Assembly (NCBI RefSeq): GCF_014643835.1
Contig: NZ_BMKD01000005.1
Location: 248,001 to 312,000 of the forward strand
Length of the DNA stretch: 64,000 bases
Direction of reading: 5' to 3'
From: Mucilaginibacter rubeus
Lineage (GTDB): Bacteria; Bacteroidota; Bacteroidia; Sphingobacteriales; Sphingobacteriaceae
A program made the position numbers and the translations under genes. The stretch's first letter is position 1. Each line of letters starts with the position of its first letter. Shown piece by piece: positions 707 to 27,166 of this stretch. The notes below the pieces were generated by a model, which did not search any database, was not told where the DNA came from, and was given only the letters and a program-made list of their open reading frames with translations.

Positions 707-1981
707 TTAACGGGAGAAGGTCAGTGTGCCAAAACCTAATTGATCATAGCCGCCACTATTACCTCCGTAGTCACCGCCACCTCCTTCGGGGCGTACTTTA
801 GTTGCAAATTGAGTAGTGTAAGTGGCTGTCTTTCCCTTTACTTTAACATAATAGTTATAAACAAGTTCCCAACCCGGGCGAACATTGCCCCGGCCTCCGC
901 TTGAAATAACGGTTTGGTTTGAATTTTCACAGTTATTATAAGTTGTATAAGGGACAGTGTTGGTTGTATTGATGTTGTAAGCCGCGATATATTCGCTTAC
1001 TCCCAAAAGTGGTGGGTTAACGTGGTTCCAGGGATTATAGTCGAAAAAGTTTTGCCCCTGGTTGTATAACATCTGGCAAAAAGTGCCAAAGAGCGGAACT
1101 TCCATGGTGGCGTGCCCCTGGTCTCTTCCGGCTTCCTGCGCCTGGTCCATTCCGTTGGGATAGGTAGCGGTGGTTACACGCCCTATATACGCTGTACCAA
1201 CACCACTGTGCTGGTAATAATTGATAGCGTAATTAACTTTACTGATATCATCACAAAGAATGCCAATGGCCAGCACGGTACAAAGGTTTGACATATCCCA
1301 ATTTAACCAGTAATGTGTTCCGCAGGTATTATTATGCCTCGCCAGGAAATCGCTTGATACGGGATAATACACATTAAGCATAAAGTTTTTGAAAGCGGTA
1401 AAATCGGTTGCCGACCAGCCACTGTAGCTACGCATAATTTCGGCCGCGTTGGCCCATTGGTAACCCTGCAGGCCGGCTGCAAGCTGTTTGTTACTATCGC
1501 CGTCAATCAGTTTGCATTTTGCCGCCCACGCGTTCATAATAGCTACGGCATTATTCCCGCAGGCGGTATCGCCCTTAATTTTCCAGCGTAATGCATTTTG
1601 ATAAGCCGCGGCCGCGTCCTGGCAAGCCAGTATGTAATTCTCGCCCTTTCCGCTTGCCGCCTTCCCGCGCACAATAGTATCTACCGGCCTGGGAACATAC
1701 GTAGCAGATGAATGGCCGTTAGCGACGAGCTTGTTCCAGCCGTCGAGCCAGGGTTGCGCCCCGGCATTTACTTTGGCCGTCATCCGGGCAAAATCCGCTG
1801 CCGAATGCAGCATTCCCGGGTGAACAATGGTTGTTACGCTACCCAACGAATATGACGTTAAATTTTTGCCTGCTACACTGTCTTTACCGCCGGTTGTTAC
1901 GCTCTGAACAGATACCGGTTTGCTGCATCCGCACAGCGAGGCTATGACACAAATAGCCAATTGAATTGATTTACTTTTCAT
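707..1981 (-). CDS. Alginate lyase superfamily lipoprotein (short form)
   Basis: Predicted polysaccharide lyase of the alginate_lyase (PF05426-like, alpha/alpha-toroid) superfamily, 424 residues, acting at the cell surface or in the periplasm. The ATG at 1981 is chosen because it gives a clean lipoprotein signal with lipobox L16-C-G-C19; an in-frame ATG at 2011 would only add ten residues. Family-like features are HPGML near the mature N-terminus, LNWD (about 226-229) and QEAGRDQGH (282-290), whose Asn, Arg and His are candidate active-site residues. The second lyase of the locus (6366-8372) shares QExGRDQxH and the VRPE...GFGTL..SR C-terminus but has extra domains. It is the last gene of the leftward PUL run. 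Whether the substrate is alginate, glucuronan or another uronate polymer cannot be read from the sequence. Confidence 0.8.
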   Translation of the reverse strand: MKSKSIQLAICVIASLCGCSKPVSVQSVTTGGKDSVAGKNLTSYSLGSVTTIVHPGMLHSAADFARMTAKVNAGAQPWLDGWNKLVANGHSSATYVPRPVDTIVRGKAASGKGENYILACQDAAAAYQNALRWKIKGDTACGNNAVAIMNAWAAKCKLIDGDSNKQLAAGLQGYQWANAAEIMRSYSGWSATDFTAFKNFMLNVYYPVSSDFLARHNNTCGTHYWLNWDMSNLCTVLAIGILCDDISKVNYAINYYQHSGVGTAYIGRVTTATYPNGMDQAQEAGRDQGHATMEVPLFGTFCQMLYNQGQNFFDYNPWNHVNPPLLGVSEYIAAYNINTTNTVPYTTYNNCENSNQTVISSGGRGNVRPGWELVYNYYVKVKGKTATYTTQFATKVRPEGGGGDYGGNSGGYDQLGFGTLTFSR

Positions 1982-2282
1982 TTTGTAGATATAATTAAAT
2001 TTAGTGAGCAATATTTTAGCTTATAATCTGAGCAAAACTCCATTATAAGACAATAAAGCAAATTGTTTATACTCTCCAGAATTAATATTAATCAAAAATT
2101 AAATTTTAAATCGAATTGGTGTTAAATCAAAAGGTTCACATTCCTGTGTTTATAGGTAAATAAGGGAGGGCACCGGTTCAAAAACAGCTAAGTTTTTTCA
2201 CAGACAGGCATCGCTGGCCAAATGAAACAGCCGATAATTGCACCGTATAGGCCTGCATCATATAGGTAAACTTGTCGCGGGT
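1982..2282. other. Intergenic between lyase and GH43 genes
   Basis: About 300 AT-rich bases separate two leftward genes. No stem-loop or perfect -7 box was found. The spacing leaves room for a separate promoter for the lyase gene. Confidence 0.3.
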
Positions 2283-4364
2283 TTATGGAGCAATTTCCTG
2301 CCAGCTGAAAACGGTACCATCTTTTTTGCCGGGCAGGGTTCCGGGCCAGTCGGCCCCATACAATTCGCCGGTATGGGGGTTCAGTCCCACAAAACGGTTG
2401 GTATGTAATGAGAGCAGCATGCACTGGCCTCGCAGCATATCCTGCCACAGCAGCAGGCTGGCGGCAGTTTCCTGTTGGCTGAGCCGAACATCGGCCGCCA
2501 TACCCTGGCCGGTAATGGTTACAAAGCCGGCACCGTTCATGGCCTGCAGCACAACGCGGCCATTTCCCCGGTCAATCACCCTGAAATTGCAGCTCGTGTC
2601 TTTTTCGTTGGTCCGGTAACTCCGTCCGGGGACGAGCATGCCGTGGGGATCGGCCCATACCATGCGGCCGTCGGCCAGGTTGGTTAGTGTAATTGTTTTT
2701 CCGATGGGCAGGTTTGTGGATCGGTCAGCCAGGGGCTCCTTCAGTTCAAATTTACTGAATGCGGCATAGCCGCCTTCTTTATTTTGGGTATTATAGGCAA
2801 ACAGCGCAAAACGGGTACCCTGGAATGTTTTTAACTGGTAAGGCAGGCGAATGGTATCGCCAAGGCTTTCAAACCCCGTTCCGTTAATGCTGTAGCTCAA
2901 CCTGGCAATATCGTTATCAAAATCGCCAAAAGCCCGTAAGCTCACCTGCGGCGATTGTAGCGGCTTATCAATAGTTTGATGCTTATACTGGTCAAAAAAA
3001 CGCAGCGTATACCCGTTACCCTCACGCAGTACGGCCACCCAGGCGTAAGGGATGTTCATCAGGCCTAAACCGGCGATATCTCCTTCCTTCAAGTGCGAGG
3101 CATCCAGGATTACTGTAGCTTCGCTCTCGGGGCCCACGCAGCGTTGGGTAAGTGTGTTGTGTGCCCATAAAAAATCTTTGGCGGGCAGGGTGTGCAGCTG
3201 TAGTTCGCCGGCTTTAAGTTTCCAGTGAGTGTTGATGGGGTTATGGTTCCATTGCCAGGCGGAAGCCAATTGGCCTGATTTAAAATCGTCGCTCCGCACG
3301 TAAGGGGCATGCGGTGCTGATGTGTTGTTAGGCTTAAACCAGGTTTTGGGCGAGCGGCCCAGGTTGCCCGCCAGGCCAAAGTAAGGCCAGCCATCCTGCC
3401 AGGTAACAGGCGAGAGGAACGTAGTGCGGCCCACCGACCTGAAGTCCATCATCGAAAAGCCCCACCACTTGCCATTTGGCATATCTACAATACCGCCCTG
3501 GTGCATGGGCACGGAGGCTAACAGCTGGTCATTACGCTTAACCATGGTCAGGTTTTCGGTGGGGGAAGGTGCGGGCGTGCCCTGGCCCATGTTGTTGGTA
3601 AACCAGCCCAGCGAAGTGCCCATGGTCTCTTTGGCGCTTATCACCGTAGTTTCGTAAGGGCCGTAGATATTGGCAGACCGGGCGCACTGCAAGCGGCCGC
3701 CATCGGCATTGGTGATGTAATATTTACCGTTGATTTTATAAAAATGGTTGCCTTCACCCATAGCCTCGGTTCGTGCGATGAGCAGCCTGTCGGTATTGGG
3801 TTCAAAGCCGCTAAAGTCGGGCTTGAGTTCAATCATTCTGATTTCGCTTTGCCCGTAAACGATGTAGATCCTGTTGTTTTCGAACAGAACCGAAAGGTCA
3901 TAAACAGGCTTTTTAAGGTCGTATTGTTTCCAGGGGCCGGCCGCGCTTTTAGCGGTAAATACCTGCAGGCCGTGCCGGTTTATGTTGGAGAAAATATAAA
4001 ATGTACCGTTGTGGTACCTGATACAGGGCGCCCAGATCCCCTGCCCATAAGCTTCTTTACCGTTGCGCAGGTTAAAATCATCGCTGTCGTCAAAACGCGG
4101 AAGTGCGTAACTCACCAGCCGCCAGTTCACCAAATCGGTAGAGTGCAGCACCGGCAGGCCCGGTACGCTATGCATGGTGGTACCTGTGATGTAGAAATCG
4201 TTATTTACCCGGATCAGGTCGGGATCTGAAAATTCGTCGTAGAACAACGGGTTGGTGTAGGTGCCGTTACCATTGTCGGCCGTCCAGGATTGCGCGGCGG
4301 CCGGGGCCGTGGTCAATATACTGTAAACGAGTAATAATTGCAGTGCGGATATTAAGCGTATCAT
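2283..4364 (-). CDS. GH43 glycosidase with C-terminal sandwich and beta-trefoil-like domains
   Basis: Secreted glycoside hydrolase family 43 enzyme, 693 residues, probably a beta-xylosidase or alpha-L-arabinofuranosidase. An Sec-type signal (residues 1-24, ending AAAQ) precedes the five-blade propeller. The three expected acidic residues are visible: base D47 in FSDPDL, pKa-modulating D156 in YDLSVLF, and general acid E204 in GEGNHFYK. Residues of about 355-555 look like the concanavalin-type C-terminal sandwich common in GH43 xylosidases. The last ~125 residues (NRFVGLNPHTGELYGADWPG and similar repeats) resemble a fascin-like beta-trefoil, an extra carbohydrate-binding candidate. It follows the GH43 gene at 4427-6040 after only 62 bases, so the two are probably cotranscribed. 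The linkage specificity is not determinable here. Confidence 0.88.
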   Translation of the reverse strand: MIRLISALQLLLVYSILTTAPAAAQSWTADNGNGTYTNPLFYDEFSDPDLIRVNNDFYITGTTMHSVPGLPVLHSTDLVNWRLVSYALPRFDDSDDFNLRNGKEAYGQGIWAPCIRYHNGTFYIFSNINRHGLQVFTAKSAAGPWKQYDLKKPVYDLSVLFENNRIYIVYGQSEIRMIELKPDFSGFEPNTDRLLIARTEAMGEGNHFYKINGKYYITNADGGRLQCARSANIYGPYETTVISAKETMGTSLGWFTNNMGQGTPAPSPTENLTMVKRNDQLLASVPMHQGGIVDMPNGKWWGFSMMDFRSVGRTTFLSPVTWQDGWPYFGLAGNLGRSPKTWFKPNNTSAPHAPYVRSDDFKSGQLASAWQWNHNPINTHWKLKAGELQLHTLPAKDFLWAHNTLTQRCVGPESEATVILDASHLKEGDIAGLGLMNIPYAWVAVLREGNGYTLRFFDQYKHQTIDKPLQSPQVSLRAFGDFDNDIARLSYSINGTGFESLGDTIRLPYQLKTFQGTRFALFAYNTQNKEGGYAAFSKFELKEPLADRSTNLPIGKTITLTNLADGRMVWADPHGMLVPGRSYRTNEKDTSCNFRVIDRGNGRVVLQAMNGAGFVTITGQGMAADVRLSQQETAASLLLWQDMLRGQCMLLSLHTNRFVGLNPHTGELYGADWPGTLPGKKDGTVFSWQEIAP

Positions 4365-4426: not shown

Positions 4427-6040
4427 TTAATGAGAATATTGATAGTGCAGGTAATCAACATCAATAAAACCGGCATCTTGCAGATCGTTAAAACTGTAAA
4501 TGGCCAGCCTGTCGCCCCTGTAAGATCCCCATCTTAACTGATAGGTTTCGCCAATGGGTTTAAAATGCCTGCCATCCGTGCTGTACGTAAAATTACTTTT
4601 GCCATCCAGGCCCCACACAGTGCGTAACCAAATGCTATTGCCCTTAATGATAGGGCCGTCGGTTACGGCATTTTCAGTAAAGAACTGCAACTGTTTACCG
4701 CTGTTGGTTTGCACTACACCGGCCGCCGCATAATGGGGTGCTCCAAAGTGCGATAGCCCGGCGCGCTGGCCGTTAGCCATACCGCTCAGCTCAATTTTAA
4801 CGGTGGCCTCGTTGGCGTTGGTGCGGTAGCAGCGCTGGGTTATGGTGTTGCCGGCATATAGCAAATCGTTTTTGAGCGGCTTGAAGGCGTGCAGCCTGAG
4901 CCAGCCTTTTCGTTGGGTTAAGGACCATTTGCCGGCGCGGGGCTGGTAGTTCCATTCCCACTGTGGTCCGGGCGTGTTGCCGGTAAACTCATCAGAGCTT
5001 TGCGGAACAGCCCGGTCGGTGCCGGTTACGGGCATGGGGGCCTGCCACACCATTTCGCCAAGGCCCGCAGCATTAGGCTGGCCAATGATAGGCCAGCCAT
5101 TAGTCCAGGTTACAGGTAACAGGCTCAATATCCGGCCCGACCAATCGCCCGAGCCATGGTGGGTCAAAAAGTACCACTTACCGTCAGCTGCCTGCACTAA
5201 TCCGCCCTGGTTGGGTTCGTTAAATTGCGGCTGACCTTCGCTCAATTGCTGCGGGCCTTCGTAAGGACCCCGGATATCTTTGGCCCGCTCCATCATGAGC
5301 ACCCTTACGTTGTTGCGCACCTCGCTAAACAGGTGGTAATAATAGCCATTAATTTTGTACAGCTTGTTTGCCTCGCTGCCCTGCGACTGGTAAATCACCT
5401 TGTCGCTTTCCCGTTCAATCACCGAGCCATCGGCCGACATTTTAAACAGGTGGATTTTATAGTTGTCGGCAAACCTGGTGCCTATCAGGTAGCCCTGGCC
5501 GTCATCATCCCAAAACGGGCAGCAGTCGTCCCAGCCTTTTTCGCTCAGTACATGTTTTAAAGGTGCCCAGGGGCCTTCGGGCCGTGTAGCCGAACTCATA
5601 AAATAACCCTCGTCCGGATCTCCGAAGTAGATCCAGAAACGGTTGTTATGATAGCGTATGGCCCCCGCCCAGATCCCACGGCCGTAACGGTCCATCCTGG
5701 TGTAATTCATAGCCGGCGAAATCACCGAAATATCGTTGACGGCGTGCCCCAGGATGCGCCAGTTCACCAGGTCCTTAGAGTGCAGGATCACAAAACCAGG
5801 CGAATACTGAAACGTAGAGGATACGGCATAATAGTCAGCACCCACCCGGATGCAATCTACATCGCTGTAATCACCAGGTAAGACAGGGTTACGGTAAGTG
5901 CCGTCGGGTTGGTCGCCCCAGTGAGTCCAGCTGCCCCATAACTGGGCTACTTGTTTAGGCTGGCAACTGGCTTTATTAAAACAAAGCAGGGCTGAAACAA
6001 GGCCAGCAATAATGGGCGCAAAAGAAATATTACCGAACAT
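4427..6040 (-). CDS. GH43 glycosidase with C-terminal concanavalin-like domain
   Basis: Exported GH43 enzyme of 537 residues, probably a beta-xylosidase/arabinofuranosidase. The N-terminal 26 residues are a hydrophobic signal. The propeller carries D60 in GDYSDVD (the usual DP is DV here), D172 in the DDCCPFWDDDG motif, and acid E223 in QGSEANKLYK. From about residue 345 a beta-sandwich with the WEWNYQPRAGKWSL and GNTITQRC motifs follows, as in two-domain GH43 xylosidases. It is a paralogue of the 693-residue enzyme immediately downstream but lacks its trefoil extension. It is transcribed leftward as the first gene of this small run; 325 bases without a gene lie upstream. Confidence 0.88.
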   Translation of the reverse strand: MFGNISFAPIIAGLVSALLCFNKASCQPKQVAQLWGSWTHWGDQPDGTYRNPVLPGDYSDVDCIRVGADYYAVSSTFQYSPGFVILHSKDLVNWRILGHAVNDISVISPAMNYTRMDRYGRGIWAGAIRYHNNRFWIYFGDPDEGYFMSSATRPEGPWAPLKHVLSEKGWDDCCPFWDDDGQGYLIGTRFADNYKIHLFKMSADGSVIERESDKVIYQSQGSEANKLYKINGYYYHLFSEVRNNVRVLMMERAKDIRGPYEGPQQLSEGQPQFNEPNQGGLVQAADGKWYFLTHHGSGDWSGRILSLLPVTWTNGWPIIGQPNAAGLGEMVWQAPMPVTGTDRAVPQSSDEFTGNTPGPQWEWNYQPRAGKWSLTQRKGWLRLHAFKPLKNDLLYAGNTITQRCYRTNANEATVKIELSGMANGQRAGLSHFGAPHYAAAGVVQTNSGKQLQFFTENAVTDGPIIKGNSIWLRTVWGLDGKSNFTYSTDGRHFKPIGETYQLRWGSYRGDRLAIYSFNDLQDAGFIDVDYLHYQYSH

Positions 6041-6365: not shown

Positions 6366-8372
6366 TTATTCTAACCTAACCTGATCAAACCTGACCGTTG
6401 TAGATACCGCTTCAAGCCCTGAAAAAACAATTATGCCGGCTTCTGTCAGCGATAGGTTTCGCGCAACAGTCCCGATCAGTTGCCAATCTTTACCATCCGC
6501 GGAATAAAACGCGTTTACCTGGTTTTGCTCCTGAACCAACTTCAACCAGCAACCGCCCGTCATACGGTTAAAAGATATCACGGGTTCTTTTATATCGAGC
6601 GTCGCTCCCACCTGTGTTAAACTATCGCCCGGGTGAAGCCGAGCCGTACAGGTTACTACCCATTTGGGGGCCTCAAGTTGTTGCGAAACTTCTGGATAGA
6701 TCAGCAAATTTACCCCGGTCCCCTTTTCCTTTGCAGACTGCCGGAACGAAATGCCGAAACCGGTGAACTGCGAAGTCAACTGCGGCTGGTAATGAATGGC
6801 GAGCGTTTGATAAGGCACTAATTTGTGATGGATGTAGGTAGCCTGCTCTTCGTTTCCGGTAAATCCCAAGCCGTTACCTTCAACAGTAAAACCAGATTCC
6901 AATGACCGTGCTTGTCCTTTTTTTGATTTGGGGTCGAGATCGGTAACCGACCATCCGGCAGGCAATCCCGCTGTAACAGCAGCAGGATAGGCATCCGTGC
7001 TTCTGCCTTTATTATTCACTGCCGATACCGTATACACATACTTGCGCCCCGGGGCTACGTTTTTATCCTGAAACTGTGCATTAGTAACCCTGGTGGAAAT
7101 TATCTTAAACTTCCCTTTCCTATTGATTGCCCTTTTAACCTGATAAAAAATGGCTCCCCGTACCGGTACCCACGTCAATTGAATGGATCTGTTCTCAGGC
7201 ATGGCCGTCAATCCCGACGGAGTGCACGGCTTAACCTTTGCATAGGGGTCAATAGTTTGCGGGCTGCGTGAGTACAATAAAGTACCAAAGCCAATATGGT
7301 CTGCACCTGGTGTGCCCTGCGGTTCCGGTCGTACTTTTTCAGCAGCTTTCTGCGTAAAAGTGGCTGTTTTATTCGCCCGGTGAACATAGTGATTAAATAC
7401 CTCTTCATAAACCGCACGCAGTTTGCCGCGCCCTTCTGTAGCTATCTGAGCATGCAAATATTTTCCGGTCTGGTCCATTGCGGGCAAATAAGGAACATCC
7501 CCCCCCAAATTATATTTCGCGGTATACTCGAAGCCCCTGAGCAGGCGATCATTGAGTATACCGTAAAGGTTTAGTCCCTGTTGCCACGCGATCTCGGCGC
7601 AATCGGCAAGATGCGCTATACCTAATTGCGTATGCGATTGGTCTCTTCCGCTTTCCTGGCACTGGCCTTCTTCATTAATAATATAATTAGGAAGGCTGCC
7701 GTTGCCTTCGCCGTATTGATAGTAAACAATCGCGCGTTCAAACATTGGCCGGTCATTGCAGAATACTGCTATGGCCATCATTGTTTTTAGTGCAGCTGAA
7801 TCCCAGTTGCCGTTAGCAAAAGGTGCAAAATCCTTAATAACCGGATAAATCACTTCTTTAAAGTGCTTCTCAGCTTGCTTAATTTTGACAGGTGCCCAGT
7901 TTGAATTGGTATAGCGCAAAATTTCCGCGGCATTAACCATTTTGAACGGTCCAAGACCGGCCATTAATACGGCGTCACGGCCTGTTATGGATTTTAATGT
8001 CGATGCCCAGGCATCAACAATTTGTTTTGCTTTTTCCGCATAACGTTGATCGGCTGTTATGGTCCACATGATGGCGTTCTGATAGGCCGCATTGGCGTCA
8101 GCATCATAAACACCCTGGCCGACGGTAGGATTTCGGCCAACCATCTCCATTGGCCCCTGCATTTTATAATCGAACTGCGACTGGCGATTCTCTTTTAATT
8201 CATTATAGCCCGTAAAAATGGGCTCAATGCGCATGGCAACACCGTTTTTTATTCTGGCCAGGTCTTCGCGGTTTTGAAGCAGCCCCGGATGGACAAACTG
8301 TTGTGCTGTTGAAGTTTGAAAGCAAAACAACAGCGCTGAAGCATTAATAAGATACCTGACAACTGTTTTCAT
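6366..8372 (-). CDS. Alginate lyase superfamily protein with FN3 and concanavalin-like domains
   Basis: Predicted secreted polysaccharide lyase of 668 residues. A signal peptide (1-23, ending STAQ) precedes an alginate_lyase-like alpha/alpha domain (about 25-375) that contains NGNWD (187-191) and QESGRDQSH (239-247), matching the shorter paralogue at 707-1981. A fibronectin type III domain follows (about 385-465, with the LTWVPVRGAIFYQVKR and YTVSAVNNKG hallmarks), then a C-terminal jelly-roll/concanavalin-like module (about 475-668). The FN3 and sandwich parts are probably linker and glycan-binding modules. The gene is divergent from the GH43-CBM6 gene at 8886, so the two share the 8373-8885 control region. 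The exact uronate substrate is unknown. Confidence 0.82.
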   Translation of the reverse strand: MKTVVRYLINASALLFCFQTSTAQQFVHPGLLQNREDLARIKNGVAMRIEPIFTGYNELKENRQSQFDYKMQGPMEMVGRNPTVGQGVYDADANAAYQNAIMWTITADQRYAEKAKQIVDAWASTLKSITGRDAVLMAGLGPFKMVNAAEILRYTNSNWAPVKIKQAEKHFKEVIYPVIKDFAPFANGNWDSAALKTMMAIAVFCNDRPMFERAIVYYQYGEGNGSLPNYIINEEGQCQESGRDQSHTQLGIAHLADCAEIAWQQGLNLYGILNDRLLRGFEYTAKYNLGGDVPYLPAMDQTGKYLHAQIATEGRGKLRAVYEEVFNHYVHRANKTATFTQKAAEKVRPEPQGTPGADHIGFGTLLYSRSPQTIDPYAKVKPCTPSGLTAMPENRSIQLTWVPVRGAIFYQVKRAINRKGKFKIISTRVTNAQFQDKNVAPGRKYVYTVSAVNNKGRSTDAYPAAVTAGLPAGWSVTDLDPKSKKGQARSLESGFTVEGNGLGFTGNEEQATYIHHKLVPYQTLAIHYQPQLTSQFTGFGISFRQSAKEKGTGVNLLIYPEVSQQLEAPKWVVTCTARLHPGDSLTQVGATLDIKEPVISFNRMTGGCWLKLVQEQNQVNAFYSADGKDWQLIGTVARNLSLTEAGIIVFSGLEAVSTTVRFDQVRLE

Positions 8373-8885
8373 AAACGTGTCTTAAATAATTAAAATTGAA
8401 TATTTTTTTAATTCGCCGAAAATTTAAATCAACCGGCCTGTCGGATATTACAAAAGGCTTGATAATACGCCAATTGTGCCTAATGTTTATCATTTGTTAT
8501 AGTCATTATAAGTGACAAATCGGACGCCTTGCACATGTTCAGCCCGGACGATACTCACTATATCAGCAGGAAAGCACACAGTACAACTCTTAACAGTTTT
8601 TTATAAAAAGGCACATACAGGAAAGACACTTTTTACCTTTTTTTATACTCATTACTATTGCCGCAATGACTTAAAAATGGAACAATAGCCTTGTTTTGAT
8701 AATTCGGCACCTTTGATCATGTCACCTAAAGTCTAATGACAATATGGATAATCAGCTATTCGATATCTGCAATGAGCGTTATCAATATGGCGGTTTTGCA
8801 CATTCGTTGTACGATTAGTTACATACAGGACATCCGGGCGAATGCTGTAATCATACTTTTAGGTCTTATATTCATTTGTACACTG
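8373..8885. promoter_or_regulatory. Divergent control region between lyase and GH43-CBM6 genes
   Basis: About 510 AT-rich bases between divergently transcribed PUL genes must hold both promoters. An 11-bp palindrome ATTGCCGCAAT lies at 8657-8667; it is built from the half-sites ATTGC and GCAAT that also make up the inverted repeats before susC and before the GH95 gene, but in the everted order. No perfect -33/-7 pair was found. An in-frame ATG at 8736 would extend the GH43 protein by 50 residues into this region, but those residues do not form a sensible signal peptide. Confidence 0.4.
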
Positions 8886-10886: not shown

Positions 10887-11274
10887 GCTGTCCCTGCCCG
10901 AAACTAATTGATCATAAAGGCAGGCGCTCTCCTTGCTTCCCGATTGCTATCCTTACCTTTTTTATCATTTAAAAACGAAAACCGCAGAAAAAAATGGTAC
11001 AGCAGCAATTGCAAACAAAGGAGTAAACAGAATTTCAAACCGCCCAGGCTTAACAGGAAAGGAAGCCAAAGAAGATGAGAGCACCGGAAGGTATAAGTTT
11101 TTCAGCTATGCTACGTTATTTTTAAAGCCAACTGAAAATCCTCAAATACAAATGCGATTAAAGCATCTCTAATGAGGATTTTCTACTTGGACTATCAGAG
11201 CGTAACCGTAATTATTTCAGATCCGGAAACAAGGAGGTTAAAAATCATTTATGTTATATATCCGACTATCTCAA
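10887..11274. other. Intergenic, convergent region
   Basis: The 388 bases between the rightward GH43-CBM6 gene and the leftward reductase gene hold no supported gene. A 79-codon frame at 10933-11172 has no recognisable product and no control signals. No strong terminator stem was seen. Confidence 0.35.
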
Positions 11275-12288
11275 CTAATATATTTTGTTCCGATTTTTAA
11301 TCAAATAGACCATTGCTTCTTTCACTACCTGCACCGGGTTTCTTGGAATAAATCCCAATTCTGTTCTGGCCTTTGAAGTATCAAAATTTTGTTGAAGTCC
11401 TGAAAACATTTTAATGTCTTTAGTAGTGAGCAATGGTGCTTTTCCCGTGATTCTGCTTCCGGTTTCCATCAGCCAGGCAATGGTCAAAAGTATGGGTTTT
11501 GGAACAGCGGCTGGCAGTTTTATATTCAGTTCAGGGAAGAGTTCCTGGGCGATTTTGGTGGTTTCTTTTATCGACATACATTTTTCGTTTGCCAGAATGT
11601 ACCGCTCACCATCCCTGCCTTTTGTTGCAGCCAGATAACAACCTTCGGCAACGTCTTTTACATCAATCCAATTGAGCGTAATGTTGGTTTCAACAGGAAT
11701 TTGTTTTTTCAAAATCAGTTGGATGATGTTATAGGAAACGTTCAATGGTGCAAATGCTTCGCTGCCAATCATTGCGGAAGGCAGTACGGCAACCAGCTCA
11801 ATGTTACGTTTCTTAGCCAACTCGAACGCCAGTTTTTCACCGTCATTTTTCGAGTTGTAATACATATCCCTGCGGTCGGGATTGTAGCCATAGCTCTCCT
11901 TTGTAGGAAGTCTGGAATAATCTAACGCCGCTATGGAACTTACATATACAATCCGTTTTACACCGGCTTCTGCGGCGGCTTCAATCATGTTTTTCGCCCC
12001 GGAAAGATTGACGTCATAAATTTCTTTTTTCGGGTTATTTGCCCAAAGTTTGAACGATGCACCTACGGCATAAAAAACATCCACATCCTGCAAGGCGTTA
12101 GCCAGGGATTGTTTGTCGGTGATGTCGGCCTGAACCACTTCGCAATTGAGTCCTGCAAAAGATTCCTGGTTTTTAATGTTGCGAACCGAAGCCCGGACAG
12201 GAATGCCTTTTTCGATAAGCAATCTCACAAGGTTATTGCCCAGATGTCCGTTTGCACCTGTAACCAATGCCAAATTTTTCTGTGCCAT
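11275..12288 (-). CDS. NAD(P)-dependent epimerase / dihydroflavonol-reductase-like SDR
   Basis: Extended short-chain dehydrogenase of 337 residues, cytoplasmic, most like the dihydroflavonol-4-reductase / 3-beta-HSD branch. The N-terminus has the Rossmann motif TGANGHLGNNLV (about 8-19), and the catalytic YxxxK is seen in MYYNSKNDGEK with an upstream SS in VYVSSIAALD. The substrate cannot be inferred. It lies 65 bases downstream of a Crp-type regulator on the same strand, so regulator and enzyme probably form one unit. Both sit inside the PUL without an obvious role in glycan use. Confidence 0.85.
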   Translation of the reverse strand: MAQKNLALVTGANGHLGNNLVRLLIEKGIPVRASVRNIKNQESFAGLNCEVVQADITDKQSLANALQDVDVFYAVGASFKLWANNPKKEIYDVNLSGAKNMIEAAAEAGVKRIVYVSSIAALDYSRLPTKESYGYNPDRRDMYYNSKNDGEKLAFELAKKRNIELVAVLPSAMIGSEAFAPLNVSYNIIQLILKKQIPVETNITLNWIDVKDVAEGCYLAATKGRDGERYILANEKCMSIKETTKIAQELFPELNIKLPAAVPKPILLTIAWLMETGSRITGKAPLLTTKDIKMFSGLQQNFDTSKARTELGFIPRNPVQVVKEAMVYLIKNRNKIY

Positions 12289-13410: not shown

Positions 13411-13452
13411 ATTGATCCTCCTTTACGCTTCATCATATGGCTTATTCTAAAT

Positions 13453-17554: not shown

Positions 17555-19474
17555 TTAGTAGCCCGGATTCTGGTAGGCAGCCTTATCAGCAGCGCTCATA
17601 ACTAATGCATCTATTTGCCCCTGCGGAATAGGGCGAAGATAGAGATGCGAGTCGATGGAACGTGTAACTTTAACCGGCGTATGGTCTCCAAAGGTGGTTC
17701 CTGCAATTGTAAAGGAAGCAGCAAGTTCCCCCCACTTTTGTGTCCGTACCAGATCGAACCAGCGGCCGCCTTCTGCATAAAATTCCCGGGAACGCTCCGC
17801 TAATACATAGTTCATGTCGATGATTGCGGGAGTAGCCGCCATCATAGCCTGGCTATCGTCTTCAATCTTTACTACATTACCATTATTATTGAAACGCCAC
17901 TTTCCTGCGCGTGCCCGCAGCACGTTAACGAGTTCACGTGCGGATTTTCCTGGTTTAACAGTGGCGCCTTTAACTGCCGCCTCCGCTGCGATCAGGTATA
18001 GCTCCGAGAATTTTGCTATTGGATAAGGACGCGTACTACCGGCATTTGGCTGTCCCAAACCTGTGCCGTTATCTGTACGATAAGGCCCCAGTTTCCAGAG
18101 TCCCGGATAAATTATCCGGCTTATATCGCCAGGGTTGACCACCCAATCTGATCTCCCTGGCAGCAGTCCCGCACCAACATTCCCGTTTGCTTTGGCGTAT
18201 GTGACGTTCGGATCGTCATTATCCAGGAACGAGAGTATCGCGCCCCCCTGTGCTACGGGCAAGCCGTTGGCATTGGCTAAGGTCTGGGCCGTATTTCCGC
18301 CCTTTTGCCAGTTTCCGCGGTATACGGTTGTGAAAGTTCCATCATATCGTGAATCGTTTACTTTATCAGCGAAAGTGTTTTTCAGTACTTCAACAGTCGG
18401 AGCCATGCGAACCCAGGGCCGGCCCAAATGTTGATCTGCCTCACGCAGAACAGAGTTCACCCCGCCACTAATTATGTTGGGATAGTTCCAGGTCATCATC
18501 CAGCCGGCAAAGTTATCCGGAGCGCCGCCGCTTCCGTAGGTCAAACTCGAACCGTTATATTTTTCACTACTTTGGGTATGGTCTGCATAGAGCACCATTT
18601 CGCTGTTACGGTCGTTTGTGCCAACATTCACATCGTAAAATGTTGGCTGTAATTTGAACGAGCCCGGATTATCAATTGCGGTGGTGGCGATATCGTAGGC
18701 GTTTTGAAAATACCACGCGGCATCGTGTCCATTGGGATCTGTCCGGTTACTTGCGGGATAGGTCGGGATACTATTGGGATTTTGCAACCACCATGCATAA
18801 GTTAAATAGGCCTTAGACAGGAAAAGACGAGCTGCCGTTTTGGTCAGTCCGCCGGTTACCCGGCCGGTTTCCGGCAGATCATTGATCGCCTGCAGCAGAT
18901 CCGGGAAAATCGCCTTTGTATAAACTTCGGGCACGGTATTACGCACTGACGTCCTTGAAGGCGTGATATTAAATTTCAACGCTCCCGAACCCAGATCAAG
19001 CGGTACGCCGCCGTAGGATTGCACCAGCAAAAAATAATCAAATGCCCTGAAGAAGCGGGCCTCAGCAATCAGAGCGCTGGAAATCCCCACGGCACTGGCG
19101 TTTTCGATTACGCCGCTGGCAGTATTGATGTCGGTAAAAGACTCGCCCCATATGATACTGGTAGGATAACTGGTTGAAGATATGATACCGACGCCTGAGC
19201 AATCCAGATCTTTGAAGTTTCCGTCGGCGCTCTGGCCCCATGTAGCTTCATCGGTACCGGTAACACCCGAATTATAGTAATAAGCCTGCCCGTAAATATT
19301 ACGCAGGTGCGCGTACATGGCTGTTAATCCACCATTTACACCCTGTACCGTTTTAAAATATTCCGGGGTGAAGGAGGAACGCGGTTGTTCATCAAGCACT
19401 TTTTTACATCCCGTAGATAAGACCGTTAGCAAAAGCGTGGATTTTATGACGCTTTTTATCTTTAAAGTTTTCAT
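17555..19474 (-). CDS. SusD/RagB-family glycan-binding outer-membrane lipoprotein
   Basis: A 639-residue surface lipoprotein that forms the lid of the SusC transporter and captures oligosaccharide. The signal ends in lipobox L-S-T-G-C (Cys about residue 23), then KKVLDEQPRSSFTPEYF, the standard SusD opening. The middle has the TPR-like helices (ALIAEARFFRAFDYFLLVQSYGGVPL) and the C-terminus has the RagB motif AERSREFYAEGGRWFDLVRT. It starts 10 bases after the susC stop, the usual tight pairing. A strong hairpin lies directly downstream. Ligand identity cannot be read from sequence. Confidence 0.96.
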   Translation of the reverse strand: MKTLKIKSVIKSTLLLTVLSTGCKKVLDEQPRSSFTPEYFKTVQGVNGGLTAMYAHLRNIYGQAYYYNSGVTGTDEATWGQSADGNFKDLDCSGVGIISSTSYPTSIIWGESFTDINTASGVIENASAVGISSALIAEARFFRAFDYFLLVQSYGGVPLDLGSGALKFNITPSRTSVRNTVPEVYTKAIFPDLLQAINDLPETGRVTGGLTKTAARLFLSKAYLTYAWWLQNPNSIPTYPASNRTDPNGHDAAWYFQNAYDIATTAIDNPGSFKLQPTFYDVNVGTNDRNSEMVLYADHTQSSEKYNGSSLTYGSGGAPDNFAGWMMTWNYPNIISGGVNSVLREADQHLGRPWVRMAPTVEVLKNTFADKVNDSRYDGTFTTVYRGNWQKGGNTAQTLANANGLPVAQGGAILSFLDNDDPNVTYAKANGNVGAGLLPGRSDWVVNPGDISRIIYPGLWKLGPYRTDNGTGLGQPNAGSTRPYPIAKFSELYLIAAEAAVKGATVKPGKSARELVNVLRARAGKWRFNNNGNVVKIEDDSQAMMAATPAIIDMNYVLAERSREFYAEGGRWFDLVRTQKWGELAASFTIAGTTFGDHTPVKVTRSIDSHLYLRPIPQGQIDALVMSAADKAAYQNPGY

Positions 19475-19484: not shown

Positions 19485-22400
19485 TTAAAATGTCAAATTC
19501 AATCCAAGTACATAATTCGTGGTCGAAGGGGCGTTGCTGCCTACTGTCAGGAATCGTCTTAAACTGTTTGACAGGGGCACCGCCGCGTTTTCATTACCAT
19601 AAGAGTTTGGTTCAGGATCCATCCCTGACTCTTTGTGATAAGGCGAGAAAAATACAAATGGATTTTGCACCGTGAAATAAGTGCGCAGGCGCATGTTCGC
19701 GTGCTTTGAGAGCAGCTTGCTGAAATCATAACCAAGCGTCATTGTCCGGATTTTGAGATAGGATGCATCAAAGTAACCGAGCGTACTGCCATATTTCGGA
19801 TTATCGCCACTCAGGATACCGCCTGGTTTCGGATATTTTGCTCCTGTGTTATCAGGCGTCCAGTAATCTTCCTGAACGTTATTACTGCGGCCTGTCATCA
19901 GGTTCAGATAGCCACCTGAGCCGTACAGGCTACTGATGAGCGTGCCCCCTTTCTTAAAGGCACCTACAACACTAAAATCAAAGCCTTTATATGCCACACG
20001 CGTATTAAAGCCGCCTTCGAATTTAGGATCAACATCGATGATCTGACGATCGGCAGCCCCGATGGCCCTTGTTGGCTGACCGTTGGCGTCATAAGTTCCG
20101 GTATACAACACTTTGATCATGCCCACATTTCCGCCCGGTTCAAGGGTGCTCAGGTAAGGGTCGCCAGACTGCCACAATCCTATTTTCTTGTAATCGTATA
20201 TGGCGTTTATATTATGGCCTACGAACCATGCGTTGCCCTCATCACGTGTCTGACCTGAAGCGAGCGCCACAAGTTTATTCCTGTTTCCATAGATATTAAT
20301 ACCCAAATCCCAGGTAAACCCGTTTTTATTGATGAGCGTACCATTCAAACTTAACTCAAGCCCCTTGTTCTGAGTCCGCCCAACGTTTGCTGTATAGCTT
20401 CCAACCCCCGCGGTAGGCGGCAGCCCTACGCCCAGTAAGATATCGTTTGTATTTGTAACATAATATTCAACAGTACCTGATAAGCGATGTTTAAACAAAG
20501 AAAAGTCTATTCCATAGTTCCATGTCTTGGAGTATTCCCAACCTAAAGTTGGACTTGGAAGCTGGGTTACATAATAGCCCGTCGCATAGTTTGTGTCGCC
20601 GAAATTATACTGACGTGTACCCAAAGTACCTAATGTCTGATAAGCATTTACTGCCTGGTTTGAGGTTTGCCCAAAGCCCGCGCGCAGTTTCAGATTATCT
20701 ATAACCGAAATGCCCTTCATGAAAGACTCATTCATGATATTCCAGCCTGCTGAAACCGCGGGATAAGTGTGCCATTTATGACCTGGAGCTAAGCGGGAAG
20801 AGGCATCCGAGCGCACGGTGGCAGACAGCAGGAAGCGGTCATCGTAGGAATACATCACACGACCCATGTAGGACATCAGGCCGCTCTGGCTGTAGTTGCC
20901 GTTGCCGATGGTGATCTCGCCGGTTGCTGCACCCAGGTTATAAAACTGGAAAGCATCAGCTGGAATATCTTTGGCCGACATGCTGGAAGAATTGTACCTG
21001 GTTTGTTCGGTAGAATACAGGGCCACGACATTTATGTTATGCTTTTGGGCGAAAGTATGGTCGTAGGTCAGCAAATTTTCAACTGCCCAGTGATATTGGG
21101 CTGAGTTGCTTACGCCCGCTGTTGACGGCGTTGTGGGCGTGGCACTGCCAATCCCAACTCCGGTGTAGTTGCCGTTGTTGCTTTGCACATAATCGAGACC
21201 AAGGTTTACCCTGTATTTCAGGCCTTCCACCCACGGAATTTTTACTTCGCCATAAACGGAGTTGTATGTGGCGTAATTCCTTGTTTCGTTGAGCCATTGA
21301 TCGTGGAGGTTATTGATGATGCCTTTGGTCAACACGAAACTTTCAGACAGTGGCGTTTTAACCGTTCTTTTCAGGCTTCCGTCCGCATTATAGGGATTGG
21401 CAAGGGGCGAAAGTCCCAAAACACTGCCAACGCCAACCTGGCTGCCTTCGGTAAGGTTATAGTTATTGTTAGTGGTAAAGCCAACTTTAACGTATTTGCC
21501 TACATTCTGGTCCACTGATCCTCTCATGGAGTAGCGGGTATATTGCTGCGTAGGAATAAGGCCCTGATTTTTATAATAGCCGCCGCCGAAATTATATGTA
21601 CCCGTTTGGCTGCCTCCGGAAACACCTACGTCATTACTGAAAACCATGCCGCTTCTGTAAAAAAGCTTCTGCCAGTCGGTATTTACGTCGTCAGCTTCGT
21701 CTACGGCGTTGGTGTACAGGCCTGCCGCTTTACGTAGTTTTAAAAATTCGGGACCGGTCATCATCGGGTACCTGGCGAAAAGTTTTTGCTCCCCATAATA
21801 GGCGTTATAGGTAATTTTAGCGGCTCCTCCCACCTGGCCCCTATTCGTGGTAATAAGTACAACGCCGTTTGCTCCCCTCGAGCCGTAAATAGCTGTGGCG
21901 GAAGCATCCTTAAGAATATCGATACTTTTAACGTCGTTAGGGTTAATATCTCCAAGAGAGCCGGTAAAAGGGATACCGTCAAGTACGATCAAGGGGTCAT
22001 TGCTTGCAGTAAGCGACCGTTGGCCCCTGATCAGGATCTGCATCGTTGCACCTGGTTTTGTAGAAGTTTGAGAAACCTCTACGCCGGGTAATCTGCCTTG
22101 TATGGCCTGGCTGATATTAGGCGCGGGAATATCACGGATCCGTTCGCCGCTGATCGACGCGACTGAACCCGTTACAGCTTCCCGCCTTTGGCTACCATAG
22201 CCGATAACGATCACATCGTTAAGGCTGTTACTGCTTTGGCTAAGACGAATGGATAAATGTGTTTGCCCGTTAATCTGGATTTCCTGGTCGGCATAACCAA
22301 TAAAAGTCACAATAAGCGCCTTCTCGGTTGGAGGGACAGTTATGGTGAAATTGCCGGCAACATCGGTAACAGATGTTGCTTTAGCTGTTTTTGCCCTTAC

Positions 22401-22547
22401 GGTAGCGCCCGGTAAAGGCAGACCCTTCTCATCGACTACGGTACCGTTTATTTTCCTGCCTTGCCCAAATGCTGTAAGGCTGGAAAGCAAAACCGCCAGC
22501 AGCAGCAAGAAAGGTTTCTTTTGAATAGTTTGTAATGATTTTTTCAT
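19485..22547 (-). CDS. SusC/RagA-family TonB-linked outer-membrane transporter
   Basis: TonB-dependent oligosaccharide importer of 1020 residues. After the signal peptide (1-28, ending AFGQ) come a CarboxypepD_reg-like domain (about 32-112, GTVVDEKGLPLPGATVRAK), the plug domain (about 115-235, with VIVIGYGSQRREAVTGSVASI and IYGSRGANGVVLITT) and a 22-strand barrel ending in the aromatic terminus LGLNLTF. It pairs with SusD (10-base gap). The ATG overlaps the stop of a possible 34-codon upstream ORF, and a perfect 18-bp palindrome lies 146 bases upstream. Expression is presumably induced by the neighbouring HTCS regulator. Confidence 0.96.
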   Translation of the reverse strand: MKKSLQTIQKKPFLLLLAVLLSSLTAFGQGRKINGTVVDEKGLPLPGATVRAKTAKATSVTDVAGNFTITVPPTEKALIVTFIGYADQEIQINGQTHLSIRLSQSSNSLNDVIVIGYGSQRREAVTGSVASISGERIRDIPAPNISQAIQGRLPGVEVSQTSTKPGATMQILIRGQRSLTASNDPLIVLDGIPFTGSLGDINPNDVKSIDILKDASATAIYGSRGANGVVLITTNRGQVGGAAKITYNAYYGEQKLFARYPMMTGPEFLKLRKAAGLYTNAVDEADDVNTDWQKLFYRSGMVFSNDVGVSGGSQTGTYNFGGGYYKNQGLIPTQQYTRYSMRGSVDQNVGKYVKVGFTTNNNYNLTEGSQVGVGSVLGLSPLANPYNADGSLKRTVKTPLSESFVLTKGIINNLHDQWLNETRNYATYNSVYGEVKIPWVEGLKYRVNLGLDYVQSNNGNYTGVGIGSATPTTPSTAGVSNSAQYHWAVENLLTYDHTFAQKHNINVVALYSTEQTRYNSSSMSAKDIPADAFQFYNLGAATGEITIGNGNYSQSGLMSYMGRVMYSYDDRFLLSATVRSDASSRLAPGHKWHTYPAVSAGWNIMNESFMKGISVIDNLKLRAGFGQTSNQAVNAYQTLGTLGTRQYNFGDTNYATGYYVTQLPSPTLGWEYSKTWNYGIDFSLFKHRLSGTVEYYVTNTNDILLGVGLPPTAGVGSYTANVGRTQNKGLELSLNGTLINKNGFTWDLGINIYGNRNKLVALASGQTRDEGNAWFVGHNINAIYDYKKIGLWQSGDPYLSTLEPGGNVGMIKVLYTGTYDANGQPTRAIGAADRQIIDVDPKFEGGFNTRVAYKGFDFSVVGAFKKGGTLISSLYGSGGYLNLMTGRSNNVQEDYWTPDNTGAKYPKPGGILSGDNPKYGSTLGYFDASYLKIRTMTLGYDFSKLLSKHANMRLRTYFTVQNPFVFFSPYHKESGMDPEPNSYGNENAAVPLSNSLRRFLTVGSNAPSTTNYVLGLNLTF

Positions 22548-23023: not shown

Positions 23024-26000
23024 TTAAATTGCAGGAGTGGCCTTGTTTTTAGACATATTCCTTTTGATGATCATGTACTCCGACGGTAACATGCCGAAGC
23101 GTGTTTTAAAGATCCGCGAAAAATAACTGGGTGTGCCGAAGCCTGTAATATAGGCGATCTGAGCTACATTATAATCACTGATCTCCAGCAACTGGGCTGC
23201 TTTGTCAAGTTTGACGTTGCGGATGTACTCCACCGGGGTTTGCCCGGTAATTTCCAGAAGTTTGTAATAAAGTGACCCCCGGCTCATGCCCACATGCCGG
23301 CTCAGTTCTTCAACTGACAACCCCGGCTCACTTAATTGGTCTTCTATATATTTCATGACCGAATTTAAAAGCTTTACATCGGCCGACTCCATTTCAACCT
23401 GGGGGCTAACCATCTGTATTTGCCTGGAATATGTATCCTTTAGATTTTTGTTCAGATCAAGAAGGTTATCGATCTTGGTTTGCAGGATTTGGAAATTGAA
23501 AGGCTTCGTAAGATAGTCATTAGCGCCTGTTTTGAGGCCTTTTAACTGATGCTCTTCCCCGGTTGTTGCCGTTAATAATATTACAGGGGTATGGCAGGTG
23601 CGCTTATCGGCTTTAATTTTTTTGCTCAACTCAATCCCATCCATGTGGGGCATGTTGATATCACTGACAACCAGGTTAACATGCGCGCCAAGTGTTTTTT
23701 GCCATCCTTCTTTACCGTGGGCCGCCTCAATAATATGATAGTATTTTTTCAGGTGATCCGACAAATAAGAGCGGAATTCGTCATTGTCCTCTACCAATAG
23801 TACGGTTGGCTTTAGTTCAGGGTTTTCGCTTCTGGCCTGCCTTTCTTTAGCGTTTTCTCTATCAGAAACGGGAGGTGTTTCGGAGGTACCGGCTTCCACC
23901 GCAGCGGTGAGCGGAAGCCTTACTAAAAAGCTTGTTCCCTGTCCGGCTATACTTTCCGCCTGAATGGTGCCGCCGTGAAGCTCTATAAATTCTTTGGTTA
24001 TGGAAAGGCCTATGCCGGTACCCTGGTTGACTATTGCACTGCTTTGGCGCGATTGATAAAAGCGTTCAAATATTTTTTCGAGATCATCGGCCTGTATGCC
24101 AATTCCGGTATCAGTAATCTTAAGCAGCAGGCCTGTGCTCAACAACGAACTCTTTTCAGCCCGGGCGCTGACAGAAACTACCCCGCCGGCAGGGGTGAAT
24201 TTAAACGCGTTAGACAACAAGTTGAAAATAACCCGCTCCAGCTTATCCGGGTCAAAGTAAGCCTGCAACTCTTCCTGTTGCACATCAACCTCCAGTGTAA
24301 CCTGTTTTTTTAAAGCAAGATCCTGAAATGCTTCGCACGACTCGGTGATAAAAGACATGATCTCTCCCGCCGAAAGGCTGAGCTTCAACTTTTGTTCTTC
24401 CATTTTACGAAAGTCAAGCAACTGGTTGACCAGGTTGAGTAACCTGCGACCATTTCTATTGATCATTTTCAGATCCTCGATGTCATTCCCCGGAACAGAT
24501 TTTTCAAGCAGTTTTTCGACCGGGGCCAGGATCAGCGACACCGGGGTTCGAAACTCGTGGCTTAGATCTGTTAAAAACTTTATTTTCAGCAAGTCCAGCT
24601 CATGCAAACGTTCAGCTTCCCGCCTTTCCTGTTCAATAAGCTGACTGACTTGAAGTTTCTCCTGGGCCTGCTCAAATTGCCTCCGGATTTTCTGAATACC
24701 ACGTCTCCTTATGAAAAACAAAGCCGATCCTAAAATAACCACGTAAGCAATATAAGCATAAACTGTTCGCCAGAACGGCGGCAATATAGTTATCCTGATC
24801 GTCGTCACCGGGTTATTCCAGTGGTTTTCATCTTTACTGGCCATCACCTCAAAACTGTAGGTCCCGGGATCAATATTGGTATAGCTGGCTGTCCGAATAT
24901 TTTGAACATAATTCCAGGCTTTATCAAAACCTTTTAGCCGATAAGCATATAAATTCTGTTTAGGAGATGTATAATCCAGTGCCACATAACCGATGGAAAA
25001 ATTTTGGCCGTATTTCAAAGTGATTTCTTTTGCGGTACTGATATGCTCATGAATCGGTGACTCATTTCCAGGATTTACTATCGCATTATCAACGGTTAAA
25101 TTGCTTAGAATTACCCGTCCGGGACGAGAGACAACCGGTAATCTCGATGGATTAAAAAAATTAAAGCCGTCCTGACCTCCAAAATAAAGATTGCCGTCCC
25201 TGGTTTTTATTCCTGAGCCTGAAGAAAAAGCTCCTTGCTGTACGCCGTTTTCGTTAGTAAAATTGCGGAAAACCCTTCTTTTGTAATCAAACGAACTGAT
25301 TCCGCGATCCGTGCTTAACCACAGGAAACCTTTATCGTCCTGCAAAATTGATTTTACGAAGGAATTAGCCAGGCCCTGACCTTCACCGTAAGAGACGAAT
25401 TTTTTTTGATTTTCGTCAAAATAGCTAATCCCCTGTTTGGTGCCAGACCAAACACTCCCGTCATTAGTTATAAATAAGTTCAGTACCACGTCGTCGGCCA
25501 GTGCCGAATTTTTTTTATTGTAATGCGTCCACTTTTGATGCTCAGTATCAAGCACTACGATTCCAGTTCCCATCGAAGCAATCCACATGCGCCCGTCCCG
25601 GCCCGGAATAATAGAAGAAATAAAACCGTTAACGGGTAAACTCCGGCTCTGGCGGCCGGCCCCGTTTTGACTTGTCAGATGTGAAAATGACTGGCTATTT
25701 TCATCATATATATCTATTCCCCGACCCAGTGTACCTATCCAAATTCTGCCACTCGCGTCGGCGTTAATGCAAGTAATATCATTGCTACAAATTCCATGAC
25801 CATTGCCGTCAGCTGTATATTGTACATATCTATGAGTAGTGATGTCAATTCGGAAAAGCCCGTTATGGTAAGTTCCCGCCCACAAGTTTCCTTTCCTATC
25901 GATATAAAGTGATGTTACGGCCAGTGAGCTTCCGCGGCGTTTCAACTTACTTTGTATATCATACGAATGCAAAAGGCCTGTCTTTTTGTCGAGCAAAGCA

Positions 26001-27166
26001 ATACCTGCGTCGGTCCCTACAAAAATGTCACCGCTGCTGCATTCCGCGAAAGCGGTTACAAGCGGCGATTTTAAACCGAGAGGATCGAAAGGGTCACTTT
26101 TCTTGTGATTGAAGAGTGCAAGATGAGGGTCGTATTTTCCGATCCCTTCGGTAAAAGTTCCAACCCAATATATACCTGCAGGGTCAATAAATATGCTGCG
26201 TATGGAATTGCTTTTCAGGCTGCCCGCATTCCTGGGATCTGCGGTCAATTGCTGAAAAACCTCCAGTTGAGGATCGAATAAATTGACCCCACCCTCTGTT
26301 CCGATCCAGATCTTGCCGTCTTTAGCCAGGCTCATCGTGAAAATTGCGTTATTGTCCAGGCTCAGGGACGATTGATTGCCAGAACGAAAAATTTCAAAAT
26401 GCCCATCATCTGTCCACTTGTTCAGCCCGTCGTACGTACCAAACCAAATGCTGCCTTTTTTATCTTCAATGATTGCTTTAACCGTGTTATTACTTAATGC
26501 GTACCTGTCCTGCTCATTGTGCGAAAACCTTTTGAAGGAATTTGATGACCATTCATACAGGTACAACCCATAATTGGTACCAACCCACATCCGTTGTCGA
26601 CTATCTTCGAACAAAGAGAGGACGACAAACGCGCCCGCGTCCTTTTTATCAGGTTCCGGAATCTTAACAGGCGTAATTCTGCCGGTTTTCGTATCAATTA
26701 TCCGGAGATCTTCATAGGTGCCTACCCATAATTTGCCCTGGTGGTCCTGGCAAATAGCCCTGACTGATATGTCTGAAATTTCTCGCCAGGAACCATCTCC
26801 CCTGAAAGGTTCGAATCGATCAAACTTGCGGTTGTAATAAGAAAGCCCCCCTCCGCTGGTACCAACCCATATCCGCCCACTTTTATCTTCAAACATTGAC
26901 AAGACTTCGTTGGAAGGAATACTATTACCAGATGCGCCATGCCTGTAAATAACGAAATTACTGCCATCGAATTTATTAAGCCCGTTTCCGGTTCCGAACC
27001 ACATCAATCCAAACCGGTCTTTTATAATGGTATTTACGGTATTCGAAGACAATCCTTCTTTTATCGTAATAGATGTAAAGTTTATAGCAGCCTGTCCATA
27101 AATTTGAGATGGGACATACAAAAAGAGCAGGCATGTCAATATATAACAGCTTTTAAACTTAAGCAT
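23024..27166 (-). CDS. Hybrid two-component system regulator (HTCS) of the PUL
   Basis: One-protein sensor, kinase and DNA-binding regulator of 1380 residues in the inner membrane. The ATG at 27166 is chosen because it gives a signal peptide ending IYGQ; an in-frame ATG at 27202 is less likely. Order: periplasmic two-component propeller repeats (about 30-690), Y_Y_Y domain (about 730-780), one membrane segment (about 798-818), HisKA with the phospho-acceptor His in LSHEFRTP (about 868), HATPase with NLLSNAFKF and GTGIGLSI, receiver with the Asp of VVSDINMPHMDG (about 1170), and AraC helix-turn-helix (about 1280-1370). It is expected to bind a PUL oligosaccharide and switch on susCD and the enzyme genes downstream. 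A perfect -7 box on the minus strand (CAAATATA as read on plus) lies at 27243-27250. Confidence 0.95.
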   Translation of the reverse strand: MLKFKSCYILTCLLFLYVPSQIYGQAAINFTSITIKEGLSSNTVNTIIKDRFGLMWFGTGNGLNKFDGSNFVIYRHGASGNSIPSNEVLSMFEDKSGRIWVGTSGGGLSYYNRKFDRFEPFRGDGSWREISDISVRAICQDHQGKLWVGTYEDLRIIDTKTGRITPVKIPEPDKKDAGAFVVLSLFEDSRQRMWVGTNYGLYLYEWSSNSFKRFSHNEQDRYALSNNTVKAIIEDKKGSIWFGTYDGLNKWTDDGHFEIFRSGNQSSLSLDNNAIFTMSLAKDGKIWIGTEGGVNLFDPQLEVFQQLTADPRNAGSLKSNSIRSIFIDPAGIYWVGTFTEGIGKYDPHLALFNHKKSDPFDPLGLKSPLVTAFAECSSGDIFVGTDAGIALLDKKTGLLHSYDIQSKLKRRGSSLAVTSLYIDRKGNLWAGTYHNGLFRIDITTHRYVQYTADGNGHGICSNDITCINADASGRIWIGTLGRGIDIYDENSQSFSHLTSQNGAGRQSRSLPVNGFISSIIPGRDGRMWIASMGTGIVVLDTEHQKWTHYNKKNSALADDVVLNLFITNDGSVWSGTKQGISYFDENQKKFVSYGEGQGLANSFVKSILQDDKGFLWLSTDRGISSFDYKRRVFRNFTNENGVQQGAFSSGSGIKTRDGNLYFGGQDGFNFFNPSRLPVVSRPGRVILSNLTVDNAIVNPGNESPIHEHISTAKEITLKYGQNFSIGYVALDYTSPKQNLYAYRLKGFDKAWNYVQNIRTASYTNIDPGTYSFEVMASKDENHWNNPVTTIRITILPPFWRTVYAYIAYVVILGSALFFIRRRGIQKIRRQFEQAQEKLQVSQLIEQERREAERLHELDLLKIKFLTDLSHEFRTPVSLILAPVEKLLEKSVPGNDIEDLKMINRNGRRLLNLVNQLLDFRKMEEQKLKLSLSAGEIMSFITESCEAFQDLALKKQVTLEVDVQQEELQAYFDPDKLERVIFNLLSNAFKFTPAGGVVSVSARAEKSSLLSTGLLLKITDTGIGIQADDLEKIFERFYQSRQSSAIVNQGTGIGLSITKEFIELHGGTIQAESIAGQGTSFLVRLPLTAAVEAGTSETPPVSDRENAKERQARSENPELKPTVLLVEDNDEFRSYLSDHLKKYYHIIEAAHGKEGWQKTLGAHVNLVVSDINMPHMDGIELSKKIKADKRTCHTPVILLTATTGEEHQLKGLKTGANDYLTKPFNFQILQTKIDNLLDLNKNLKDTYSRQIQMVSPQVEMESADVKLLNSVMKYIEDQLSEPGLSVEELSRHVGMSRGSLYYKLLEITGQTPVEYIRNVKLDKAAQLLEISDYNVAQIAYITGFGTPSYFSRIFKTRFGMLPSEYMIIKRNMSKNKATPAI

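Follow-up and report, generated by a model that had tools for sequence, protein, structure and literature searches.

We analysed a 64,000-nucleotide stretch of the Mucilaginibacter rubeus contig NZ_BMKD01000005.1 (positions 248,001 to 312,000; hereafter the window) and found at its positions 707 to 27202 a polysaccharide utilisation locus (PUL) with a SusC/SusD pair, carbohydrate-active enzymes and a sensor. Our best explanation, to which we give about an even chance, is that this PUL is of glucurono(arabino)xylan lineage and specialises in the side chains of an acidic, strongly branched glycan of the xylan type, and that two barrel proteins have been recruited to it as uronate lyases. An earlier note on this DNA had put a polymer with a uronate backbone first; this substrate reading should shift to an acidic, branched xylan-type glycan. 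The substrate could be, for example, a mucilage or gum in which xylan and uronate chains are linked; we chose such a hybrid as the putative substrate because it would bring the xylan lineage and the lyases into accord.

All ORFs (open reading frames) of the PUL are intact in the window, and a Pfam scan of the 10 PUL proteins returned the expected families, confirming the gene set listed in the earlier note: two PF05426 proteins, four GH43 proteins, a GH95, SusCD and a hybrid two-component sensor (HTCS). The names lyase A, lyase B and GH43a to GH43d are labels coined in this analysis. Along the minus strand run the HTCS (23024..27202; Reg_prop, Y_Y_Y, HisKA, HATPase, receiver and HTH_18), the TonB-dependent SusC (19485..22547; TIGR04056, 777 bits), SusD (17555..19474; Pfam match), GH95 (14697..17198) and GH43d (13453..14523); beyond GH43c on the plus strand (8736..10886; likely start 8886, by eye) follow lyase B (6366..8372), GH43b (4427..6040), GH43a (2283..4364) and lyase A (707..2011; likely start the ATG at 1981), again on the minus strand. 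The span had been given as 707 to 27166; the left end stands, but 27166 is an internal ATG of the HTCS gene, which reaches 27202.

The four GH43 proteins all match PF04616. GH43a, GH43b and GH43c also carry GH43_C2, with CBM6 in addition in GH43c; the best PDB match is 6mly, a bifunctional GH43-CE protein, for GH43a (310 bits) and GH43b (194 bits), and 6ms3 for GH43c (168 bits). GH43d is predicted to be a beta-xylosidase from its close similarity to solved GH43 enzymes (5glk, 514 bits; 6xn0, a xylosidase, 419 bits; 4mlg, a beta-xylosidase, 413 bits). Genomes of the genus hold 19-36 GH43 genes (7 genomes, 4.6-8.2 Mb), or about 0.05 per 12 kb, so that four in 12 kb are not there by chance. They do not form one block, and two other genes (11275-12923) lie inside the PUL. 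Some GH43 enzymes are endo-arabinanases; the endo-arabinanase models of NCBIfam scored the GH43 proteins of the PUL at no more than 21-33 bits, far below their cut-offs (480 and 800). With GH10, GH30, GH5 and any other exclusively endo-hydrolase family absent from the 10 proteins, the two PF05426 proteins are the only likely non-exo enzymes of the cluster, as had been claimed, and the GH43 and GH95 enzymes are consistent with the proposed removal of side chains. GH95 is of the alpha-L-galactosidase/fucosidase type, with 4ufc (BACOVA_03438) matched at 851 bits; its Thr398 and Glu529 line up, counted by hand, with Thr370 and Glu501 of that protein, and the second-best match, 7kmq, likewise has Thr. 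The Thr/His switch in GH95 is called unproven in a passage of its source paper (PMC4491172).

The lineage of the PUL was traced through SusD, for which 18 of 149 Mucilaginibacter genomes hold an ortholog (E up to 1e-60). We opened 9 of the 17 loci outside the closest comparison genome, which we take as M. gossypii Gh-67 (contig NZ_FNCG01000008.1, 96% match); these sister stretches (35 kb each, within L167-L184) have SusD proteins with 76-95% identity. Orthologs of SusC and SusD occur in all nine, the HTCS in seven, and GH43c, GH43d or GH95 in part. GH10 was found in seven and GH67 or GH115 in six, at least one of these being present in eight; the exception, in genome G028, consists of HTCS, SusC, SusD and GH43c only. 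Sampled sister-locus proteins matched GH10 (five proteins), GH115, GH8, UxuA and GH95 in Pfam, and UxuA and mannonate oxidoreductase in NCBIfam, with xylulokinase-like and cut xylose isomerase proteins below cut-offs. The window's GH95 has 66-68% identity to those of two sister loci; the values are 41% for the GH95 of a lyase PUL in G047 and 37-38% for Chitinophaga. GH43a and GH43b adjoin each other, together with GH29 and GH97, in G028, G049 and G135 (the three loci opened among the 8 genomes that have GH43a at E up to 1e-100), and the same 60 kb of G028 holds GH67, GH31, GH92 and a GH43d ortholog (71%). Since the orthologs of the transporter, the sensor, GH95 and the GH43 proteins sit in PULs with GH10, GH67, GH115, UxuA and SASA esterases, the hydrolases, transporter and sensor are, by orthology, of xylan-PUL descent; the sister PULs themselves are predicted from their families to act on xylan. 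The SusC/SusD pair is thus orthologous to those of xylan-type PULs.

Lyases A and B both belong to the alginate-lyase superfamily by their PF05426 scores (32 and 61 bits, respectively; curated cut-off 22.2) and the barrel fold of their models. Lyase A is a probable lipoprotein. Lyase B has a signal peptide, a catalytic domain at about residues 24-372, and fn3 and ConA-like domains; its C-terminal domain (473-668) resembles 3mep. Foldseek matches to GH43 beta-xylosidases were taken as reflecting a common ConA-like domain only. We compared 40 B rows and 25 A rows with the PL5 alginate lyase A1-III in a low-identity alignment (9-14% identity), taking Tyr246 and His192 of A1-III, mutants of which are named in PDB titles, to be its catalytic residues. 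At Tyr246, the B rows have 19 T, 14 E, 4 S and 3 A, and the A rows 18 T, 3 A, 3 S and 1 C; all 65 rows have Trp in the column of His192. Asn191 is kept in 40/40 B and 24/25 A rows, and none of the 40 B rows varies at Gln239, Glu240, Arg243 or Gln245, part of a conserved QExGRDQxH motif. His328-Tyr329 of B may be a replacement pair (His in 40/40 B and 23/25 A rows), but the window's lyase A has Tyr-Tyr there. A and B are putative lyases: their fold fits this activity, and the canonical catalytic pair does not.

Relatives of the two proteins were collected by a scan of genome contigs (best 80 of 444, 79 loci). A tree built from 69 rows sets A apart from B (97/96), and both groups contain Bacteroidota as well as Actinomycetota, although the long branches of A and of a third type may attract each other. 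Among the 34 actinobacterial B loci, A lies directly downstream in 27, a GH28-like gene upstream in 31 and a carboxylesterase gene nearby in 17; the 7 without A directly downstream comprise 3 contig ends, 2 with another arrangement of A and 2 (Arthrobacter) without A. For 24 hand-picked Bacteroidota B loci, with neighbours mostly counted within 10 kb, we found GH97 in 16, an unnamed family of 550 aa in 13, GH28-like genes in 10, GH127 in 7, A in 7 (one doubtful, at 30% identity), GH43 in 5 and GH95 in 2. A GH88-family gene lies within 30 kb of B in all six near-full-length B loci of five other Mucilaginibacter genomes, against a chance expectation below 0.1 per locus (3-7 such genes per genome). 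For lyase A, seven loci of close relatives were opened; A lies within a lyase PUL with GH88 and GH97 in G025, beside a divergent SusC-FecR-sigma set in G129 and beside SusC/SusD in G021 (FecR, sigma and SusD by eye). More distant A proteins are in lyase PULs of G057 and G027.

Several further features of these loci were recorded. A GH28-like gene, then lyase B, lengthened there by a long extension at the C-terminus, then lyase A is an order that recurs in Streptomyces, Glycomyces and others (L055-L110), and an ABC transporter permease precedes this set in L070, the one locus checked by Pfam. The family of about 550 aa (L045:13708-15330 and relatives) has no Pfam or NCBIfam match and is sometimes present in two copies near B; a GHSAA motif, seen by eye in one relative, points to an alpha/beta hydrolase. 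In L044, lyase B adjoins a Sortilin/BNR-repeat protein (12005-14833) that carries a secretion tail; a member of the same cluster lies at 12040-14943 in L046. A PF05426-type domain also occurs in giant proteins (about 1,900-3,000 aa), among them L136:8398-17451 (G025), the one scanned, in which fn3, laminin-G, CBM3 and a secretion tail were matched as well; similar lengths occur in M. gossypii (C43), G018 and G057. Finally, a PF05426-like relative of the third type in M. gossypii (C13, L156-L157) keeps the His-Tyr motif; a GH43d paralog and GH67, UxuA and SASA genes are found at a distance of about 4-13 kb.

In the division of labour that we propose, the HTCS would sense an imported fragment and SusCD would import oligosaccharides; side groups would be stripped by GH43d (beta-xylosidase type), the other GH43 proteins (arabinofuranosidase/xylosidase types) and GH95 (L-galactose or L-fucose). 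These roles in sensing, import and trimming follow from the protein families. Lyase A, possibly at the cell surface, and lyase B, as recruited (alpha/alpha)-barrel proteins, would cut 4-linked uronates by beta-elimination, which we infer from their fold and from the GH88-family genes near B in Mucilaginibacter. A number of observations count against this proposal. The 10 PUL proteins scanned include no endo-xylanase, and GH10, GH67, GH115 and GH88 are absent from the PUL; neither lyase occurs in any of the nine sister stretches; the PL5 catalytic Tyr is found in 0/40 B and 0/25 A rows, and the His in none. GH88 is near B in 0/34 actinobacterial loci and, at about 10 kb, in only 6/24 Bacteroidota loci, and the M. 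gossypii PUL contig has no GH88-family match. In M. gossypii the PUL persists although lyase A is gone, and the place of lyase A in the PUL may be loose, because 4 of the 7 opened A loci (G013, G172, G119 and G018) have no PUL genes beside A.

The strongest competitor, which we nonetheless consider unlikely, is that A and B are not lyases at all, but hydrolases, binding proteins or proteins that use this barrel for some other activity, with the conserved QExGRDQxH motif as its basis. The replaced Tyr and His columns, the four invariant residues of the motif in B and the lack of GH88 near actinobacterial B would all suit such a function; the conserved Asn, an invariant Arg on hand for a carboxylate and the GH88-family genes near B in Mucilaginibacter argue for lyases. 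Less probable still is the uronate backbone, glucuronan-like or a gum, that lyases would cut while GH43 and GH95 take off neutral side groups. It fits the absence of any other likely endo-enzyme from the PUL, and it draws on the GH88 genes near Mucilaginibacter B relatives and on a superfamily that, according to part of one source, includes glucuronan and alginate lyases (PL38; PMC9029943). The xylan-PUL lineage of SusCD, HTCS, GH95 and GH43 displaced it as first guess, and the PUL lacks a GH88 to finish unsaturated products. Alginate is not a first choice either, as the 10 proteins include no other alginate-lyase family and the hydrolases are of pentose/L-sugar types.

Comparison with M. gossypii bears on a reading to which we give the same low probability as the uronate backbone, namely an eroding xylan PUL whose endo-enzymes are already gone and whose lyases are passengers or loosely adjacent genes. 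Of the 31-letter words sampled from the window, 36% recur in M. gossypii, and the PUL is collinear there at 95-97% DNA identity, with two large internal differences. One is window 646..4278, comprising most of GH43a and the whole of lyase A, in place of which the DNA comparison shows about 40 bases; the GH43a start with its signal peptide is retained and runs into a frame that soon stops. This scar indicates that GH43a and lyase A were lost by M. gossypii, rather than gained by the window. Such a deletion, like the reduced orthologous locus of G028, would fit erosion; the PUL ORFs in the window, however, are intact, and dN/dS against M. gossypii is 0.01-0.15 for the six genes compared (lyase B 0.15, GH43d 0.14, GH43b 0.13, GH95 0.08, SusD 0.02, SusC 0.01). 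Lyase B is under purifying selection. At the left edge, window 1-645 has a 97% DNA match in M. gossypii, followed there by a conserved unnamed gene and an RtcB-like gene, and no PUL gene was seen by eye in the next 25 kb. The look beyond position 1 that the earlier note had called for thus revealed no endo-xylanase in the collinear genome; yet GH10 is present in sister PULs, and M. gossypii has GH10 and GH67 outside the PUL. Because of these genes elsewhere, this PUL could be a second, side-chain-oriented one, by analogy with PUL-XylL in Bacteroides ovatus. We also considered, and dropped, a lyase that releases methanol from the 4-O-methyl-glucuronate of xylan, and a viral origin of lyase B was set aside with no relative in one scan of viral contigs.

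The other internal difference is window 10953-13439, represented by about 60 bases in M. gossypii. It holds an SDR-type gene (11275..12288, minus strand; best NCBIfam match HpnA, 214 bits, below the cut-off of 368), which probably has no part in PUL function, and a Crp/Fnr-type regulator gene (12354..12923, minus strand; weak CRP match, 27 bits).

A bolder and tentative extension is that A and B found two uncharacterised polysaccharide lyase families that abstract H5 without the canonical Tyr/His pair. In at least two phyla they would form a two-enzyme cassette that acts, together with a GH28-like protein, on a single plant glycan bearing uronate; in the window this cassette would have been built into a xylan PUL, where it opens a hybrid polymer of xylan and uronate. 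None of the papers found in an open-access library describes, judged by title or abstract, either lyase subfamily or a PUL with this gene set, in keeping with the earlier suggestion that the PUL type is undescribed. If true, the lyase reading would add to the breakdown of plant glycans a kind of lyase whose active site is unrecognised, and give a handle on a substrate common to bacteria as distant as Mucilaginibacter and Streptomyces. The lineages of the transporter (xylan) and of the putative depolymerase (uronate lyase) would then disagree within one PUL, a warning against predicting substrates from enzyme lists alone.

Among known systems, the PL5 lyase A1-III differs from A and B in its distance (9-14% identity) and its replaced Tyr246 and His192 columns. 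Solved PL38 enzymes gave no sequence match to the lyases at the limits used, and the catalytic pair Tyr298/His243, given for BoPL38 in part of its source (PMC13169297), is apparently absent from A and B, as placed only via A1-III. The Mucilaginibacter xylan-type PULs resemble the PUL in transporter, mostly in sensor and partly in hydrolases, and differ in having GH10, GH67 or GH115 in 8/9 and neither lyase. PUL-XylL of B. ovatus, which acts on complex xylan, is alike in its GH43 proteins, GH95 (there of L-galactosidase type), SusCD and HTCS, as far as part of its source paper describes it (PMC4491172); it has GH31, GH97, GH98 and other xylan enzymes, whereas the PUL of the window has none of these and carries two PF05426 proteins instead.
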